Origin: Streptomyces sp. NBC_01481
GTDB taxonomy: Bacteria; Actinomycetota; Actinomycetes; Streptomycetales; Streptomycetaceae
DNA: 64,000 nucleotides
Assembly (NCBI RefSeq): GCF_026339995.1
Contig: NZ_JAPEPT010000002.1
Span: forward strand, 1 to 64,000
Direction of reading: 5' to 3'
Shown: one piece after another, positions 3,291 through 55,189 of the stretch
Layout: the number at the start of each line of letters is the position of its first letter
How positions within the stretch are numbered: the stretch's first letter is position 1
Translations under genes and position numbers: made by a program
Notes under the pieces: model-generated
Seen by the model: only the letters and a program-made list of their open reading frames with translations
Database searches by the model: none
Told to the model about the DNA's origin: nothing

Positions 3291-3809
3291 TTAGCGCTTG
3301 CTGTACTGCGGGGCCTTGCGGGCCTTCTTCAGACCGGCCTTCTTGCGCTCGACCGCACGGTCGTCGCGGGAGAGGAAGCCGGCCTTCTTGAGCGCCGGGC
3401 GGTTGTTGTCCATGTCCGCCTCGTTCAGCGCGCGGGCCACGCCGAGGCGCAGGGCGCCGGCCTGGCCGGAGACGCCGCCACCCGAGATGCGGGCGATGAC
3501 GTCGTAGCGGTTGTCGAGCTCGAGCACCTTGAAGGGCTCGTTGACTTCCTGCTGGTGCACCTTGTTGGGGAAGTACTCCTCAAGGGTGCGACCGTTGATC
3601 TTCCACTTGCCGGTGCCCGGAACGATCCGGACGCGGGCGATGGCGTTCTTGCGACGGCCCAGGCCGGCAGCCGGCTGCGGGTCGCCGAAGCGGGACGCCA
3701 TGGACTCGGAGGTGTACTCGCCCTCGACGGGGGCTTCCGACTCGAAGGTCGTCACCTCGGCGAAGGTCTCTTCGCCCTCGAGCGGGGTCTCTGCAGTGGT
3801 CTCGGCCAC
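3291..3809 (-). CDS. rpsI: 30S ribosomal protein S9
   Basis: Small-subunit protein whose C-terminal tail reaches the P-site tRNA. It is 172 residues long. The first ~45 are an acidic Glu/Thr-rich extension ([18 protein letters not shown]) seen in actinobacterial S9 and absent from E. coli S9 (about 130 residues). The core begins near [17 protein letters not shown] and ends in the basic PQYSKR tail expected of S9. The start is GTG with GAGGA upstream. It follows rplM after 42 bases, the universal L13-S9 pair. Confidence 0.97.
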
Positions 3810-3851
3810 GATTCTCCTCAGATTTCTTTACGTCTTAGGGGGTGGCCGGAA

Positions 3852-4295
3852 CTACTGCGCGACCTGGGTGATCTCGAACGGGACCGGCTGCTGAGCAGCG
3901 TGCGGGTGGTTCTCGCCCGCGTAGACCTTCAGCTTCGAGAGCATCTGACGGCCCAGGGTGTTCTTGGGGAGCATTCCCTTGATGGCCTTCTCGATGGCCT
4001 TCTCGGGGCTCTTGGCGAGCAGCTCGTCGTAACGGATGGAACGCAGACCACCCGGGTAGCCGGAGTGGCGGTACGCCATCTTCTGGGTCCGCTTGTTGCC
4101 GGACAGGTGAACCTTCTCGGCGTTGATGATGATGACGAAGTCACCAGCGTCAACGTGCGGCGCGTAGATCGGCTTGTGCTTGCCCCGCAGAAGGGTGGCG
4201 GCGGTGGTCGCCAGACGGCCCAGGACAATGTCCTGCGCGTCGATGATGTGCCACTGGCGCGTCACATCGCCGGGCTTGGGGCTGTACGTACGCAC
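3852..4295 (-). CDS. rplM: 50S ribosomal protein L13
   Basis: Early-assembly large-subunit protein that binds 23S rRNA. It has 147 residues, the usual length, with the family motifs [28 protein letters not shown] and [19 protein letters not shown]. It is the first gene of the L13-S9 operon. A clear promoter lies about 210 bases upstream, leaving a long leader that contains a hairpin at 4331-4356. Confidence 0.97.
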
Positions 4296-47026: not shown

Positions 47027-48049
47027 ATGGAGCGTGTACGTGACGTAACCCTGCTGCCCAAGGCTCATCTGCATCTGCACTTCACCGGGTCGATGCGGCC
47101 CACCACCCTGCTGGAGCTCGCCGACAAGTACGGCGTCCATCTGCCCGATGCCCTGACCGGCGGCGAACCGCCCAAGCTGCGGGCCACCGACGAGCGCGGA
47201 TGGTTCCGTTTCCAGCGGCTCTACGACATGGCGCGGTCCTGTCTGCGCTCCCCCGAGGACATCCAGCGGCTGGTGCGCGAGGCGGCCGAGGAGGACGTCC
47301 GGGACGGTTCCGGCTGGCTGGAAATTCAGGTCGATCCGACCTCATATGCCCCCATGCTGGGCGGGCTGATCCCGGCGCTGGAGATCATTCTGGACGCGGT
47401 GGAGCGCGCCTCGCGGGAGACCGGCCTCGGGATGCGGGTGCTGGTCGCGGCGAACCGTATGAAGCACCCTCTGGATGCGCGCACACTTGCGCGGCTCGCA
47501 GTGCGCTATGCGGACCGTGGGGTTGTCGGCTTCGGCCTCTCCAACGACGAACGCCGGGGCATGGCACGGGACTTCGACCGCGCCTTCTCCATCGCGCGGG
47601 AGGGCGGCCTGCTGGCGGCGCCGCACGGCGGCGAGCTGACGGGTCCCGCTTCCGTACGGGACTGCCTGGACGATCTGCACGCCTCGCGGATCGGCCACGG
47701 GGTACGGGCGGCGGAGGACCCGCGGCTGCTGCGGAAGCTGGCGGAGCGCGGGGTGACCTGCGAGGTGTGCCCCTCGTCGAATGTCGCGCTCGGCGTGTAC
47801 GAGAAGCCCGCCGATGTGCCGCTGCGCACCCTGTACGACGCGGGGGTACCGATGGCTCTGGGGGCGGACGACCCGCTCCTCTTCGGCTCGCGGCTGGCCG
47901 CCCAGTACGAACTGGCACGCAGGCACCACGGCTTCACGGACGCCGAACTGGCCGAACTGGCACGCCAGTCGGTGCGGGCGTCGGCGGCTCCGGACGAGGT
48001 GAAGGACAAGCTGCTGGCGGGGATCGACAACTGGCTGGCTACGGACTGA
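47027..48049 (+). CDS. Adenosine deaminase family protein
   Basis: A 340-residue metal-dependent hydrolase that deaminates adenosine or a related purine. The zinc ligands and catalytic residues are recognisable but variant: HLHLHFTGS (usually HxHLDGS), PHGGE (usually HAGE), RIGHGVRA, CPSSNVALGV and GADDPLLF (usually NTDDP). These changes make adenosine only one possible substrate; adenine-like or aminodeoxyfutalosine-type substrates should be considered. The ATG chosen (MERVRDVTLLPKAH) has no clear ribosome binding site; CAAGAT ends 6 bases upstream. Its end overlaps the convergent TetR gene by 11 bases. Confidence 0.88.
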   Translation: MERVRDVTLLPKAHLHLHFTGSMRPTTLLELADKYGVHLPDALTGGEPPKLRATDERGWFRFQRLYDMARSCLRSPEDIQRLVREAAEEDVRDGSGWLEIQVDPTSYAPMLGGLIPALEIILDAVERASRETGLGMRVLVAANRMKHPLDARTLARLAVRYADRGVVGFGLSNDERRGMARDFDRAFSIAREGGLLAAPHGGELTGPASVRDCLDDLHASRIGHGVRAAEDPRLLRKLAERGVTCEVCPSSNVALGVYEKPADVPLRTLYDAGVPMALGADDPLLFGSRLAAQYELARRHHGFTDAELAELARQSVRASAAPDEVKDKLLAGIDNWLATD

Positions 48050-48635
48050 TTCCGCGCAGCAGGGTGCGTGCAATGCCGGCGGCGAACTCGTCGAGGGGCT
48101 GTGGGGGTTTGCCGCCCTCCGTCATCTCGTAGGCGAAGGCACGCTGGGCGCAGGCGCCGAGAAGCAGCGAGGCGGCGGCGTAGGTGTCCGCCTCGGCGCC
48201 GATACGGCCCGCCTGCTGCTCGGCCCGCAGATAGACGTCCAGGCCCTGGATCGGCCTGTGCGGCCCCGCGCCCATCTCACGCATGGCCTGCTCGTGGCGT
48301 CGCTTGAGCTGCGGCTCGGCGTAGAGCGAGGCGGCGATCGGGAAGGTCTGCTCGTAGAAGAGCGCGGCCTCGCGGGCGACCGCCGTGAGGTTCTCCTCGA
48401 CGGGATGCTTTCCCGGCTCGGCGGTGAGGCCGGCGAGCAGCGGGCTCAGCTTGGGCAGCCGCTCTTTCAGGACGGCGATGAACAGTTCCTCCTTGCTCGC
48501 GAAGTTCTTGTAGAGCGCGGCCTCGGAGCAGCCTGCCGCCTTGGCGATCTCCTTGGTGGTGGTGCGGGCGAGGCCGAGGGTGAGCATGAGTTCATGGGCG
48601 GCGTCGACGATGCGGGCGCGAGCCGGTTTCTGCAT
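48039..48635 (-). CDS. TetR family transcriptional regulator
   Basis: A 198-residue one-component repressor. The N-terminal helix-turn-helix (RTTTKEIAKAAGCSEAALYKNF, in part) is canonical; the C-terminal ligand domain is not assigned. GGAGGAT precedes the ATG. It is divergent from the NAD(P)-binding protein gene, with two 20-base repeats in between that are likely its operators. The ligand is unknown. Confidence 0.9.
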   Translation of the reverse strand: MQKPARARIVDAAHELMLTLGLARTTTKEIAKAAGCSEAALYKNFASKEELFIAVLKERLPKLSPLLAGLTAEPGKHPVEENLTAVAREAALFYEQTFPIAASLYAEPQLKRRHEQAMREMGAGPHRPIQGLDVYLRAEQQAGRIGAEADTYAAASLLLGACAQRAFAYEMTEGGKPPQPLDEFAAGIARTLLRGISP

Positions 48636-48659: not shown

Positions 48660-48706
48660 GTGAGTGAGTACTTACCCACTCTAGAGGTGAGTGAATACTT
48701 ACCCAC
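48660..48706. promoter_or_regulatory. Two direct-repeat operator candidates for the TetR regulator
   Basis: 20-base units at 48660-48679 and 48687-48706 match at 19 of 20 positions (consensus GTGAGTGAnTACTTACCCAC). Each is an imperfect palindrome (16 and 14 of 20 positions symmetric). Starts are 27 bases apart. They lie between divergent genes; TTGACG at 48653-48658 could be a -35 for the plus-strand gene. Confidence 0.7.
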
Positions 48707-48722
48707 CCGAGGAGGGTGCGCC

Positions 48723-49355
48723 ATGAAGCTCACAGTTTTCGGTGCGACCGGCCAAATCGGTCAGGAGATCGTCACGCAGGCGCTGGCGGCGGGGCACGAG
48801 GTGACGGCGGTGGTGCGCGATCCGGCTCGGTTCACGATCACGGGTCCCTGCCTGCAGGTGTTCCAGGCGGACCTGAAGGAGGGCGAGTCGCTGCGCAAGG
48901 CGGTCGCCGGGCGTGACGCGGTCCTCTCGGGTCTTGGTGCACGCAGGCGCGGGGACGCCGGGGTCGCGGCCGCGCTGACGCGCTCGGTGCTCTGGGCGAT
49001 GGAGGCGGAGGGCACACGCCGACTGCTGGTGGTGAGCGCGGCCCCGCTCGGCCCGGTCCCCGAGCGCCAGCCGATGCTGGACCGCACGACGCTCGCGGTG
49101 ATCAACACCTTGCTGAAGCCGGTGTACGACGACCTCCGTTCCATGGAGGAGGAGCTGGCGCGCAGCACGACGGACTGGACCTCGGTACGCCCGCCACGGC
49201 TGCTGAACAAGCCACTGACAGGCACGTACCGGACGGTTGTGGGCGGCACTCCGCGCAGCGGCAGGACGATCGGCCGTGCGGATGTGGCCCACGCGATGCT
49301 GGGAATGATCGAGAACCCCGCGACGGTCAAGCAGGGTGTGGGCGTGGCGTACTAG
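48723..49355 (+). CDS. NAD(P)-binding Rossmann protein, NmrA-like
   Basis: A 210-residue short-chain, NmrA/BVR-type protein. The N-terminal MKLTVFGATGQIGQEIV holds the GxxGxxG dinucleotide motif, followed by VVRDPARF and LLVVSAAPLG. It has no catalytic YxxxK that I can see, so it may be a redox sensor or reductase. GGAGGG lies upstream of the ATG. It is probably controlled by the divergent TetR gene. Confidence 0.85.
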   Translation: MKLTVFGATGQIGQEIVTQALAAGHEVTAVVRDPARFTITGPCLQVFQADLKEGESLRKAVAGRDAVLSGLGARRRGDAGVAAALTRSVLWAMEAEGTRRLLVVSAAPLGPVPERQPMLDRTTLAVINTLLKPVYDDLRSMEEELARSTTDWTSVRPPRLLNKPLTGTYRTVVGGTPRSGRTIGRADVAHAMLGMIENPATVKQGVGVAY

Positions 49356-50909: not shown

Positions 50910-51965
50910 TTACAGGCTGACGCCGACCGTCACCGGCTCGTTGACGAGCGTGACACCGAATGCCTCGCGCACGCCCGCCACGACCTCGCGTGCGAGCGCG
51001 AGCAGGTCCTCGGTGGTGGCTTCACCGCGATTGGTGAGGGCGAGCGTGTGCTTGGTGGAGATCCGGGCCGGCCCGGTGCCGTACCCCTTGGTGAAGCCGG
51101 CCTTGTCGATCAGCCATGCCGCCGAGGTCTTGGTGCGCCCCTCCCCCGCCGGGAAGGCGGGCGGTGCGACGTCGGGGCCGAGGCGGTCGTGAACCCGGGT
51201 GAGAAAGATCTCGTACGCGGCTTGATCGAGGATCGGGTTGGTGAAGAAGGAACCCGCCGACCAGGTGTCGTGGTCCTCGGGGTCCAGCACCATGCCCTTG
51301 CCCGCGCGCAGTTTCAGTACGGTCTCGCGGGCGGCGGCCGCCGGGACACGGTCGCCCGCCTCGACGCCGAGTGCGCGCGCCGTCTCGGCGTACTTGAGCG
51401 GCGCCGACAGACCGCCCGCGTCCTCCAGCTCGAAACGGACCCGCAGGACGACATAGCGCTCGGGGTCCTGCTTGAAGCGGCTGTGGCGGTACGAGAAGGC
51501 GCACTCGGCGTTCGGGACGGTGACCGTCTCGCCGTTGCGGCGGTCGTAGGCCACGACCTCGGTGATGGTGCTGGAGACTTCCTGGCCGTACGCGCCCACG
51601 TTCTGGATCGGCGTGGCACCGGCCGAGCCGGGGATGCCCGCCAGGCACTCGATGCCCGCGAGGCCCGCTTCCACGGTGCGGGCGACGGCGTCCGTCCAGA
51701 CCTCGCCCGCGGCCAACTCCAGCGTGGTACCGCACAGTTCGAAGCCGCGGGTGGCGATGCGCAGCGCGGTGCCGTCGAATCCCTTGTCGCCGATGACCAG
51801 GTTGCTGCCGCCGCCGATGATCAGCAGCGGGGTGCCTGCGGCGTCCGCCTCGCGTACGACGGCGACCACCTCGTCGTCGGTGGTCGCCGTGACGAGGCGG
51901 GTCGCGGGGCCGCCGAGCCGGAAGGTGGTCAGGGGGGCGAGGGGGGCGTCGTGGAGTTCCTGCAC
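50910..51965 (-). CDS. murB: UDP-N-acetylenolpyruvoylglucosamine reductase MurB
   Basis: FAD enzyme that reduces UDP-GlcNAc-enolpyruvate to UDP-MurNAc in peptidoglycan synthesis. It has 351 residues: NTTFRLGGPA-type start (LAPLTTFRLGG), the FAD loop LLIIGGGSNLVIGD, GIPGSAGATPIQNVGAYGQE, YRHSRFK, and GSFFTNP with the catalytic Ser. The GTG at 51965 (QELHDAPLAPL) fits the family; TACCCT ends 7 bases upstream, suggesting leaderless translation. A much longer open frame upstream lies inside the MFS gene and is spurious. Confidence 0.95.
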   Translation of the reverse strand: MQELHDAPLAPLTTFRLGGPATRLVTATTDDEVVAVVREADAAGTPLLIIGGGSNLVIGDKGFDGTALRIATRGFELCGTTLELAAGEVWTDAVARTVEAGLAGIECLAGIPGSAGATPIQNVGAYGQEVSSTITEVVAYDRRNGETVTVPNAECAFSYRHSRFKQDPERYVVLRVRFELEDAGGLSAPLKYAETARALGVEAGDRVPAAAARETVLKLRAGKGMVLDPEDHDTWSAGSFFTNPILDQAAYEIFLTRVHDRLGPDVAPPAFPAGEGRTKTSAAWLIDKAGFTKGYGTGPARISTKHTLALTNRGEATTEDLLALAREVVAGVREAFGVTLVNEPVTVGVSL

Positions 51966-52072
51966 GGGGACAAGGGTACGGTCCGTGGCTCCACCTCTCG
52001 GGCGGGGCCACGGACCGGATGCGTACGCCGCTGTCGTACGGATCACACGGCGACGGGACACATCGCCTCCGG

Positions 52073-53515
52073 TCACACGCCGACGGGCACGGACTTCTCG
52101 ACGGCCTCCGAGCTCACCGGGGCGTCGGCCGGTGTCAGGTGGCGGCGGCCCGGGATCAGCAGGGCGACCATGGCCGCCACGGCCACCGCGCCCGCGCCGA
52201 TCCACAGTGCCGGGACGGTGCCGTCGGTGAAGGCCTGGGGGGACTCGTAGCTGCCCTGGGCTGCGAAGACCGCGCCGAGGACCGCGACACCGAGCGCGCC
52301 GCCGACCTCGCGCAGGGCGTTGTTCGCGCCGGACGCGACGCCCTGTTCGGCCGTGCGGACGCTGGCCATGACGACGCTGGCAGCGGGGGCGAAGTACAGC
52401 GCCATGCCGATGCCGCTGAGGATCAGTGCGGGCAGCTGCGCGGAGTACGACACACCCGGCTCCAAGACCAGCGCGAAGAGCGCCAGACCCACGGCCTGAA
52501 GGGCGAGGCCGGTGGCGACGACCGGGCGGCCGCCGATCTTGTCGGAGAGATATCCGGCGACGGGCGCGACGATCAGCGGCATTCCGGTCCAGGGGAGCAT
52601 CCGCAGACCCGCCTCGGTGGGCGAATACCCGGCGACGCCCTGCAGGAACTGGCTGAGCAGGAAGATCGAACCGAACATCCCCAGGAACATCAGCAGGCTC
52701 GCGGCGTTGATGCCGAAGAAGGCGCGGTTGCGGAAGAGCCGCATGGGGAGCATGGGGTTCTTGCTCGTCAGACCGTGTCTCACGAAGGCGGCCAGGAGGA
52801 GCGTGCCCAGGATCAGACCGGCCAGGATCGGGGTGCTGCTCCAGCCGTCGGCCTGGCCGTTGACCAGTGCATAGACGATCCCGAAGAGGCCGCCGCTGAC
52901 GAGCAGGGTGCCTGGAATGTCGAGCCGGGCGTTGGGTGCGTACGACTCGTCCAGACGCAGCCGGGCCAGCGGCAGCAGCGCCAGGCCTATCGGTACGTTC
53001 AGCCAGAAGATCCACTGCCAGGAGATGTGCTCGGTCAGGCTGCCGCCGATGAGTGGGCCGCTGGCGACGGCGAGGCCGGTGACGGCGCTGAAGATGCCGA
53101 GAGCCGCACCGCGCCGGGCGACCGGGACGGCCGCCGTGAGCAGGGTCAGGGTAAGCGGCATCATGATCGCTGCACCAACACCCTGGACGGCGCGGGCCGC
53201 GATGAGGGCGTCGATACCGGGTGCGAGGGCGGCCGCGGCGGAGGCGCCGGTGAAGACGGCCAGGCCCGCTATGAAGAGCCTGCGCCGGCCGAAGCGGTCG
53301 CCGAGCGCGGCACCGAACATCAGCAGGACGGCGAAGGTGAGCGTGTACGCGCTCACCGTCCATTCCAGGTCCTCCAGCGCGCCTCCGAGGTCCTTGCGGA
53401 TGGAGGGGAGTGCGGTGGTGACGACGAGGTTGTCGAGGGCCGCCATGAAGCCGGCGACGCTGGTGATGACGAGTGCCCAGGCGGCGCTGCCGCGGCGGGC
53501 CGTGCTCTGTTCCAT
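52073..53515 (-). CDS. MFS efflux transporter, DHA2 (EmrB/QacA) family
   Basis: A 480-residue proton-coupled drug efflux protein with about 14 predicted transmembrane helices. Motif A-like GAALGDRFGRRRLF after helix 2, the family motif C region GLAVASGPLIGGSL in helix 5 and TALPSIRKDL near the start support DHA2. AGGGGA precedes the ATG. It is directly downstream of a TetR gene in the same direction with a shared operator sequence, so it is likely a drug-inducible exporter. Its substrate is unknown. Confidence 0.92.
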   Translation of the reverse strand: MEQSTARRGSAAWALVITSVAGFMAALDNLVVTTALPSIRKDLGGALEDLEWTVSAYTLTFAVLLMFGAALGDRFGRRRLFIAGLAVFTGASAAAALAPGIDALIAARAVQGVGAAIMMPLTLTLLTAAVPVARRGAALGIFSAVTGLAVASGPLIGGSLTEHISWQWIFWLNVPIGLALLPLARLRLDESYAPNARLDIPGTLLVSGGLFGIVYALVNGQADGWSSTPILAGLILGTLLLAAFVRHGLTSKNPMLPMRLFRNRAFFGINAASLLMFLGMFGSIFLLSQFLQGVAGYSPTEAGLRMLPWTGMPLIVAPVAGYLSDKIGGRPVVATGLALQAVGLALFALVLEPGVSYSAQLPALILSGIGMALYFAPAASVVMASVRTAEQGVASGANNALREVGGALGVAVLGAVFAAQGSYESPQAFTDGTVPALWIGAGAVAVAAMVALLIPGRRHLTPADAPVSSEAVEKSVPVGV

Positions 53516-53529
53516 GACTTTCCCCTGAT

Positions 53530-53549
53530 GTTAGTTATCGATGACTAAC
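53530..53549. promoter_or_regulatory. TetR operator candidate before the MFS gene
   Basis: Palindrome GTTAGT-N8-ACTAAC centred 24 bases upstream of the MFS start. It has the same half-sites and spacing as the site at 54165-54184. Confidence 0.75.
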
Positions 53550-53594
53550 TTCCGTAGGCAGAGAAACGCGCACATCCATGGACGCGCGAGCGCC

Positions 53595-54155
53595 CTACTC
53601 CGCCACTGGAATGTTGGACATGTCGAAGCCCGACCAGACGCGATGCCCCTTCGGGAAGCCGAGCGACGCCAGGACGTTGATGAGCATTCCGTAGGACAGG
53701 AAGTACGTGGTCTCCTGCACATCGGCGCCCAGGGCAAGATGCGAGAAGTCCCAGAGCTTCTCCCACTCGGCCCGGATCGCTTCGCCGAAGTCATGGTCCC
53801 CGGCCGCCTCGGCCGAGGCCACGGCGACGTACACCTGCATCTGCATGAGCAGCCTGTCGGGGTCTTCGGCCAGAAGCTGCTTGTACGCGGTCCCCATCGC
53901 CAGGTGGACATCTTCCGGCGCCACATCGCGCGCGGCATCCGCCATCGCCTCGCGGGTCTGATTCAGACAGCGGGTCGCCGCCGCGAGGAAGAGTTCCTGC
54001 TTGTTCTTGAACAGCCGGAAGAGATACGGCTGCGACACCCCGACCCGCTTGGCGATCGCCTCGGTGGAGGTGCCGTCGTAGCCACCTCGCGCGAACTCGG
54101 TGATCGCTGCGCGGATGACGCTCTCGCGTCGCTCTTCTGCGCTCATCCTGACCAT
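53595..54155 (-). CDS. TetR family regulator of the MFS exporter
   Basis: A 186-residue regulator. The helix-turn-helix TSTEAIAKRVGVSQPYLFRLF is canonical. Three possible starts exist (54176 TTG, 54155 ATG, 54146 ATG), none with a strong Shine-Dalgarno sequence. I use the ATG of MVRMSAEERR. An operator palindrome lies 10 bases upstream of it, implying autoregulation. The MFS gene follows after 79 bases. Confidence 0.88.
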   Translation of the reverse strand: MVRMSAEERRESVIRAAITEFARGGYDGTSTEAIAKRVGVSQPYLFRLFKNKQELFLAAATRCLNQTREAMADAARDVAPEDVHLAMGTAYKQLLAEDPDRLLMQMQVYVAVASAEAAGDHDFGEAIRAEWEKLWDFSHLALGADVQETTYFLSYGMLINVLASLGFPKGHRVWSGFDMSNIPVAE

Positions 54156-54164
54156 GAGAACTAA

Positions 54165-54184
54165 GTTAGTGGCCAATCACTAAC
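54165..54184. promoter_or_regulatory. TetR operator candidate before the TetR gene
   Basis: Palindrome GTTAGT-N8-ACTAAC (arms extend to 7 bp), identical in half-sites and spacing to the site before the MFS gene. Confidence 0.75.
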
Positions 54185-54223
54185 AAGTCAAGAGGCGAGT
54201 GATACGGAGGCAGGGGAAGCGGG

Positions 54224-54257
54224 GTAAGGGGCACCCCCGTGGAGGGGTGCCCCTTAC
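54224..54257 (-). terminator. Terminator after the MaoC gene pair
   Basis: Perfect 14-bp stem GTAAGGGGCACCCC/complement with a 6-base loop, about 50 bases past the second MaoC stop. Confidence 0.75.
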
Positions 54258-54299
54258 TCATCGCCGTACCGCTCGGGACTCATCGCCGTACTGCTCGGG
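54256..54299. repeat. 22-bp tandem duplication
   Basis: ACTCATCGCCGTACnGCTCGGG occurs twice head to tail (54256-54277 and 54278-54299) with one C/T difference. It lies between the MaoC stop and its terminator and overlaps the edge of the terminator stem by two bases. Confidence 0.8.
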
Positions 54300-54308
54300 C
54301 GCGGCCCC

Positions 54309-54737
54309 TCAGGAGAGCTGCACCACGGCGCGGGACATGCTCAGCACCTTCTGCCCCTCGCTCAGCACCGTCACGTCGACCTGGACGCGGTTGTCGTCCA
54401 GCTTGGCCGCGACCTTGCCGCTGACCTCGATCAGCGCGCCCTTCTCGTCGTTCGGCACGACGACGGGCTTGGTGAAGCGGACGCCGTACTCGACGACCGC
54501 GCCCGGGTCACCGGCCCAGTCCGTCACGACGCGTACCGCCTCGGCCATGGTGAACATGCCGTGCGCGATCACATCGGGAAGTCCCACCTCCGTGGCGAAC
54601 TTCTCATTCCAGTGGATCGGGTTGAAGTCGCCCGAGGCGCCCGCGTACTGCACCAGCGTGGCCCGCGTCACGGGAAAACTCTGCGCCGGAAGCTCGGCAC
54701 CCACCTCGACGTCCGCGTAAGAGATCTTCGCAGCCAT
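54309..54737 (-). CDS. MaoC family dehydratase
   Basis: A 142-residue hot-dog-fold hydratase/dehydratase. The hydratase 2 motif is YAGASGDFNPIHWNEKFATEVG, with catalytic Asp and His, followed by GMFTMAEAVR. It resembles HadB of the type II fatty acid synthase-linked (3R)-hydroxyacyl-ACP dehydratase. GAGGAGG precedes the ATG, which overlaps the upstream gene's stop (TGATG). It probably forms a heterodimer with the upstream protein. Confidence 0.9.
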   Translation of the reverse strand: MAAKISYADVEVGAELPAQSFPVTRATLVQYAGASGDFNPIHWNEKFATEVGLPDVIAHGMFTMAEAVRVVTDWAGDPGAVVEYGVRFTKPVVVPNDEKGALIEVSGKVAAKLDDNRVQVDVTVLSEGQKVLSMSRAVVQLS

Positions 54738-55189
54738 CACGCCTCCTCGGCAGCGCGCGCCACCAGCTTGGTCCACGCGGTCACGACATGCGCGCCGGCC
54801 TCGTCGCGCACCTCGCCACGGATGTCCACAACATCGTTGCCCGCAAGGGACTTGATGGACTCAATGGTCGAGATGACGGTGAGCCGGTCCCCCGCGCCGA
54901 CCGGCCGGGTGTACGCGAACTTCTGCTCGCGATGCACCACGCGGTCGTAATCGAGTCCCAACTGCGGGTCCTGAATAACCTGTTCAGCAGCTTTGAAAGT
55001 GATCGCGAAGGCGAAAGTCGGCGGCGCGATCACATCGGAGTGGCCGAGCGCTCTGGCGGCATCCGGGTCGGTGTACGCGGGATTGGCGTCGCCCACCGCC
55101 ACGGCGAACTCGCGGATCTTTTCCCGGCCTACCTCATAAGGCGAGGTGGGCGGATAAGTCCGCCCCACGAAGGACTGGTCGAGCGCCAT
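54737..55189 (-). CDS. MaoC N-domain protein (UPF0336, HadA-like)
   Basis: A 150-residue hot-dog-fold protein: ALDQSFVGRTYPPTSPYEVGREKIREFAVAVGD (in part) and HSDVIAPPTFAFAITF. The catalytic Asp-His pair of MaoC is not in its usual place, as in HadA/HadC-type non-catalytic subunits. A strong AGGAGGG precedes the ATG. It is translationally coupled to the downstream MaoC gene, suggesting a heterodimeric acyl dehydratase. Confidence 0.88.
   Translation of the reverse strand: MALDQSFVGRTYPPTSPYEVGREKIREFAVAVGDANPAYTDPDAARALGHSDVIAPPTFAFAITFKAAEQVIQDPQLGLDYDRVVHREQKFAYTRPVGAGDRLTVISTIESIKSLAGNDVVDIRGEVRDEAGAHVVTAWTKLVARAAEEA

Follow-up and report, generated by a model that had tools for sequence, protein, structure and literature searches.

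Organization of the locus

The window analysed here is a 64,000-nucleotide stretch of DNA from Streptomyces sp. NBC_01481 (contig NZ_JAPEPT010000002.1, positions 1 to 64,000). On its minus strand, it holds a regulator gene and an exporter gene in the order hadA, hadB, O1, tetR, O2, exporter, murB, where O1 and O2 are two putative operators. The features are as follows, upstream to downstream:

54309..55189, minus strand: hadB and hadA, 3R-hydroxyacyl-ACP dehydratase subunits (by best models, below the equivalog cut-offs)
54186..54191, minus strand: putative -35 element of tetR, TTGACT, proposed from sequence
54165..54184, minus strand: putative operator O1, GTTAGTGATTGGCCACTAAC on the minus strand, between the putative -35 and -10 elements of tetR
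54163..54168, minus strand: putative -10 element of tetR, TAACTT, overlapping the operator edge
53595..54155, minus strand: tetR, TetR-family repressor gene, 186 aa (TetR_N PF00440, 56.4 bits, cut-off 24)
53567..53588, minus strand: terminator-like hairpin, CGCGCGTCCATGGATGTGCGCG followed by TTT, between tetR and O2
53530..53549, minus strand: putative operator O2, GTTAGTCATCGATAACTAAC on the minus strand, in front of the exporter gene
53532..53537, minus strand: putative -10 element of the exporter promoter, TAACTA, inside O2 (from sequence and logo, low confidence)
52073..53515, minus strand: exporter gene, DHA2 (EmrB-type) MFS, 480 aa (TIGR00711, 301.2 bits, cut-off 230.2)
50910..51971, minus strand: murB, conserved downstream neighbour (MurB_C, 86.4 bits, cut-off 27)

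The AlphaFold2 model of the regulator (pLDDT 91.6, eight helices) has the all-helical fold with a C-terminal ligand domain, and TetR-family chains come first in both fold searches (best Z 16.9, 2.3 Å over 162 residues, with the rows tied). PDB sequence searches and the fold searches returned general TetR relatives only, with tied top Z values, and we rejected naming a ligand from structure; FadR proteins head the VIA-align list for the model, which is not a ligand assignment. The exporter also matches MFS_1 (225.4 bits) and falls below the cut-off of every NCBIfam model for a named drug exporter in the comparison: TcmA (212.5 bits against 999), EmrB (192.8 against 925), LfrA (189 against 825), SmvA (185.9 against 701) and QacA/B (177.9 against 900).

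For comparison we used named orthologous loci, the best 80 of 268 relatives, with TetR proteins 63-82% identical to that of the window. They are nearly all from Streptomyces, with three from Actinacidiphila, one from a record named Streptosporangium and two from metagenome-derived actinomycetes. With the window they form an 81-row logo; the TetR alignment took in 39 of the same 81 sequences. The hadB and hadA genes have tblastn matches in the same orientation in 80 of the 80 loci and are conserved upstream neighbours outside the circuit discussed below, and murB has a match in 72 of 80. Just downstream of hadB, the window has two tandem copies of a 22-base unit (54256-54299) and, between hadB and tetR, a G+C-rich inverted repeat without a T run (54226-54255, minus strand), possibly the end of the hadAB transcript.

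Putative operators and promoters

The palindrome GTTAGT-N8-ACTAAC occurs exactly at 53530-53549 (GTTAGTTATCGATGACTAAC) and at 54165-54184 (GTTAGTGGCCAATCACTAAC), 635 bp apart. The sequence-only reading from which we started had placed the same half-sites, at the same 8-base spacing, before TetR and before the DHA2 exporter, and it was exact at both positions. O1 ends 9 nt ahead of the tetR ATG (first base 54155, minus strand), and O2 ends 14 nt ahead of the exporter ATG (first base 53515, minus strand). The conserved motif is longer than the two half-sites, as inner and flanking bases are also kept in the logo, where O2 reads AAGTTAGTCATCAATAACTAA; these additional bases had been omitted from the earlier reading.

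At tetR, the geometry would be that of a promoter with the operator as its spacer. The putative -35 and -10 elements are 17 nt apart, TTGAC recurs at the -35 position in the logo (displaced by one base in some rows), and each base of TAACTT is conserved in at least 95% of rows. The start codon follows TAACTT after only 7 nt in the window, so the tetR mRNA may be leaderless or nearly so. A sigma-70 consensus scan of the tetR upstream region reported no promoter. The exporter promoter is poorly defined in the logo, with a weak -35 at about 53556-53561. A hairpin passing the same rule as the one between tetR and O2 is found in 15 of the 80 orthologues, against 0.9% of shuffles; an intergenic terminator common to such loci was rejected, and we regard the hairpin as a detail of this genome.

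The palindromes in the window and the genome

A third GTTAGT-N8-ACTAAC site is absent from the 64-kb window, even with two mismatches tolerated, a setting at which shuffled windows hold a mean of 0.26 matches and at least two matches in 4 of 100 shuffles. In the whole genome (7,700,586 bases, 95.75% complete), an exact search returned two matches, both at the tetR-exporter locus, where about 0.05 would be expected in 7.7 Mb from base composition; the reversed pattern, as an exact-match control in the same genome, gave none. The earlier reading had called for such a genome-wide motif search, and the count of two excludes many unrelated copies in this genome. Under a motif model trained on the 80 named loci, the two sites score 41.1 and 33.1, and the next-best genomic place among the matches listed (C9:880181, between ORFs, with one mismatch to the shortened motif TTAGT-N8-ACTAA) scores -7.8. 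With two mismatches allowed, this shortened motif has 42 places in the genome (84 counting both strands) as against 135 (270) for the reversed control, hence no enrichment of sites elsewhere, and a wider regulon beyond the locus was rejected.

Conservation in orthologous loci

Both sites recur throughout the 80 named loci. Counting mismatches over the 12 half-site bases, the best place upstream of tetR has none in 48 loci, one in 22, two in 9 and three in 1, and the best place downstream of tetR has none in 36, one in 35, two in 8 and three in 1; as each is the top-matching place within the interval searched, a small number of the poorest matches may be spurious. In the logo, O2 is about as conserved as O1, inner bases included, and most flanking intergenic columns are not conserved. 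The second operator even persists in one locus in which the exporter is internally deleted (L007, about 3605-3860) and in another in which a small ORF with sub-threshold Pfam hints only stands in the exporter's place (L080, about 3668-4089), which suggests that, at the level of sequence, regulator and operator are the more constant components of the module.

Presence and absence across Streptomyces

Exact sites occur in 61 of 121 Streptomyces genomes; 22 of these hold two, none holds more, and the reversed control is absent from all. The TetR is present (E<=1e-30) in 77 of the 121, and all 61 site-bearing genomes fall among these 77, whereas none of the 44 TetR-less genomes carries an exact site (Fisher p 7e-20 for the association). 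Among the matches listed (75 of 83), 46 exact sites lie just upstream of tetR, 29 just downstream and none elsewhere.

Sixteen of the 77 genomes have the TetR and lack an exact site. We fetched 20 of the 83 TetR matches, a set separate from the 74-locus class-wide count below, comprising six second copies and 14 of these 16 genomes (G050 and G105 were left out). Thirteen of the 14 carry both sites at one to three mismatches; the remaining one (L156) has no site, and no exporter was found beside its TetR. The six second TetR copies (L137-L140, L142 and L143) are without a close adjoining exporter and show no motif score above 0. The same is true of all nine homologues that lack a close adjoining exporter, namely these six, L156, and two loci from the class-wide sample (L117 and L118). 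Four TetR paralogues (L117, L139, L140 and L143) have AAACCGATCGGTTT palindromes upstream in place of the GTTAGT sites.

Distribution across the class

We ran the motif model on all 74 TetR matches (E<=1e-25) in a class sample of 394 genomes, in which the TetR was matched in 20 of 137 sampled genera. The score threshold of 5 was chosen after inspecting 27 of the 74 loci, and the counts are not independent because the loci are related. Twenty-eight of the matches are in Streptomyces, like the training set, and 46 outside; 24 of the 62 co-oriented loci are likewise from Streptomyces, and the loci outside this genus are the better held-out part of the test. A related exporter lies co-oriented downstream of tetR in 62 of 74 loci, and both sites score above 5 in 60 of these 62; outside Streptomyces, both are found in 36 of 38 co-oriented loci. 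Outside the expected places, none of 273,498 positions scores above 5. The conservation reaches TetR proteins near 40% identity.

The two exceptions among the 62 are L126, which has the upstream site only, its second being weak (score 0.7), and L170, where neither is above threshold. Other gene arrangements come with other numbers of sites. With a divergent exporter, one site lies between the genes in 4 of 4 loci. In four loci the stretch contains no exporter, and tetR is preceded by a site in all four: two of these (L132 and L134) have an MMPL pump (Pfam MMPL, 202.2 and 194.6 bits) directly downstream of the TetR and one site place each (2 of 2), one (L130) has murB next to tetR, where no exporter was found, and one (L172) is cut by a contig end. 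Where the exporter is distant (<40% identity), one locus has no site (L176) and one has only the downstream site above threshold (L179); L117 and L118, with an MFS gene only elsewhere in the stretch, have none. From these sequences, the number of operators appears to follow the number of promoters, two where the pump has a separate promoter and one where the genes are back-to-back or directly coupled, which is the pattern expected from a dedicated local repressor. Seven loci of one genus, g35 (L128, L129, L131, L165, L167, L169 and L171), have an extra, weaker site in the tetR-exporter gap, 26-27 bp beyond the second operator.

Expression of the likely S. coelicolor orthologues

SCO4640 and SCO4641 are the likely orthologues of the TetR and the exporter in S. 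coelicolor, assigned by gene position: SCO4636 and SCO4637 are given as hydroxyacyl-ACP dehydratase (PMC5882110), matching the hadA and hadB found beside tetR here. The array tables of PMC3897704 list SCO4640 as TetR and SCO4641 as a transmembrane efflux protein, and have both higher in early mycelium on solid medium, with log2 MII/MI values of -4.3 and -2.5, respectively; the corresponding values in liquid are -0.2 and -0.5. A paper on solid cultures gives values of -4.5, -4.5 and -4.2 for SCO4640 at three times, placing it among the genus-conserved genes of unknown function with the strongest differential expression (PMC3610822), and the gene is also reported as up with glucose (PMC4848846). 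The joint movement of SCO4640 and SCO4641 fits joint derepression in early mycelium; shared read-through would look alike.

A proposed circuit and its alternatives

How would such a locus work? We propose that the TetR represses its own gene and, through a second promoter, the exporter gene as well, and put the probability of this reading at roughly 0.88. One TetR dimer would bind O1, a 20-bp palindrome that takes up the spacer of the regulator's own promoter and runs into its -10, and a second dimer would bind O2 and repress the exporter promoter. Each gene would have its own promoter and its own operator, as the two are arranged in tandem, separated by a gap that in this genome contains a terminator-like hairpin. 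Binding of a small molecule to the C-terminal domain would release both sites, allowing synthesis of the pump and of fresh repressor that shuts the system off again, and the pump's substrate may be the ligand itself. In two relatives, this regulator and operator accompany a different pump, as might suit a sensor coupled to export. The self-regulated repressor controlling the exporter, as posited by the sequence-only reading, is supported by sequence comparison, namely by the association across 121 genomes, the presence of both sites in the 80 named loci and the class-wide motif-model test.

Against this circuit, the exporter promoter is poorly defined and read-through from tetR is possible. 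In one alternative, the TetR would control nothing but its own gene, O2 being a weak or vestigial site, and transcription of the exporter would come from read-through or be governed by another regulator. The weak exporter -35 would agree with this, as would the locus that keeps its pre-tetR site with no exporter found beside tetR (L130) and the persistence of the second site after deletion (L007) or replacement (L080) of the exporter. We nevertheless consider it quite unlikely, given that O2 is about as conserved as O1 down to its inner bases, unlike most flanking columns, that it is kept in 60 of 62 class-wide loci, and that SCO4640 and SCO4641 move together (PMC3897704).

Could the sites instead belong to a different, global regulator, next to which the TetR is incidental? 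Sites elsewhere would then be expected, yet no genome of the 121 has more than two exact ones, none of the 44 without the TetR carries any, and the nine homologues without a close adjoining exporter are also without sites, which makes this explanation very improbable. As for chance palindromes, or inherited sequence without function, the pattern was picked after being seen, and at two mismatches 4 of 100 window shuffles also reach two matches; against this, about 0.05 exact matches are expected in the genome and two are found, both at one locus, and the conservation extends to TetR proteins near 40% identity, so that an origin of this kind is scarcely credible.

Beyond the autorepressor circuit itself, we offer a broader and rather speculative idea, which we consider rather unlikely: that this is an old, class-wide actinobacterial export switch answering an endogenous metabolite, not an outside drug, in which the regulator and operator have been kept and the pump exchanged (DHA2 for MMPL) or lost. 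The switch often adjoins hadAB and murB, and the likely orthologue SCO4640 counts among the regulators with the strongest link to early mycelium. A lipid-like or cell-envelope-related inducer would be consistent with the hadAB and murB genes nearby, with the exchange for an MMPL pump and with the structural similarity to FadR proteins. If the cell does make the inducer, this would explain the early-mycelium expression of SCO4640 and SCO4641 and would point to an exported metabolite.

Relation to known systems

The kind of circuit is well known, and a TetR repressor with an MFS exporter is also the layout of PqrA/PqrB of S. coelicolor; judged from sequence, the present example is real and unusually well conserved. 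Putative operators stand at the inferred promoters of both the regulator and the pump, as in an autoregulated TetR-pump pair. TetR/TetA shares the TetR-fold repressor, the MFS pump and palindromic operators at the regulator's and the pump's promoters (PMC3511530). However, tetR and tetA are transcribed divergently from a shared intergenic region that contains both 15-bp operators, whereas here the genes are co-oriented, the operators lie 635 bp apart and the operator sequence differs. SCO3367, SGR3979 and ActR are Streptomyces TetR regulators that likewise act on a neighbouring putative export pump gene, but those described as tested in PMC3511530 are divergent, in contrast to the co-oriented pair here. 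The third group of that paper takes in regulators that are not divergent and lie more than 35 bp from the next gene, and it is described without a target prediction; the tetR locus here would fall in this group (PMC3511530). A target would thereby be assigned to a co-oriented TetR, a layout without prediction in the published neighbour rule (PMC3511530).

BkaR of Mycobacterium (MSMEG_4718/Rv2506) is an autoregulated TetR repressor with two operators and GTTAnT/AnTAAC half-sites, but its 16-bp core is GTTA(N)T(N4)A(N)TAAC and its reported targets are branched-chain keto-acid genes (PMC3920632); O1 and O2 are not of this operator type, having 8 bases between half-sites as against 4 in that core (PMC3920632). 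LfrR/LfrA of Mycobacterium smegmatis pairs a TetR repressor with an MFS exporter (PMC5895659), but the exporter here reaches 189 bits on the LfrA model, below its cut-off of 825. In the open-licence literature, we found no description of a GTTAGT-N8-ACTAAC operator or of this TetR-exporter pair, and likewise none of the operator's class-wide distribution, a weak absence since the search covered open-licence papers only. With the TetR in 77 of 121 sampled Streptomyces genomes, the operator offers a ready-made reporter design for the pair.

A probable second local TetR with twin operators

The window holds probably a second local TetR with twin operators, to go by the sequence. Two tandem 25-nt copies at 48660-48711, spaced 27 nt start-to-start, 88% alike and beginning GTGAGTGARTACTTACCCAC, sit between a divergent TetR gene (48039-48635, minus strand) and an NAD(P)H-binding gene whose ATG is at 48723 on the plus strand. 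The 17-base core of this repeat has no other match in the genome within one mismatch.
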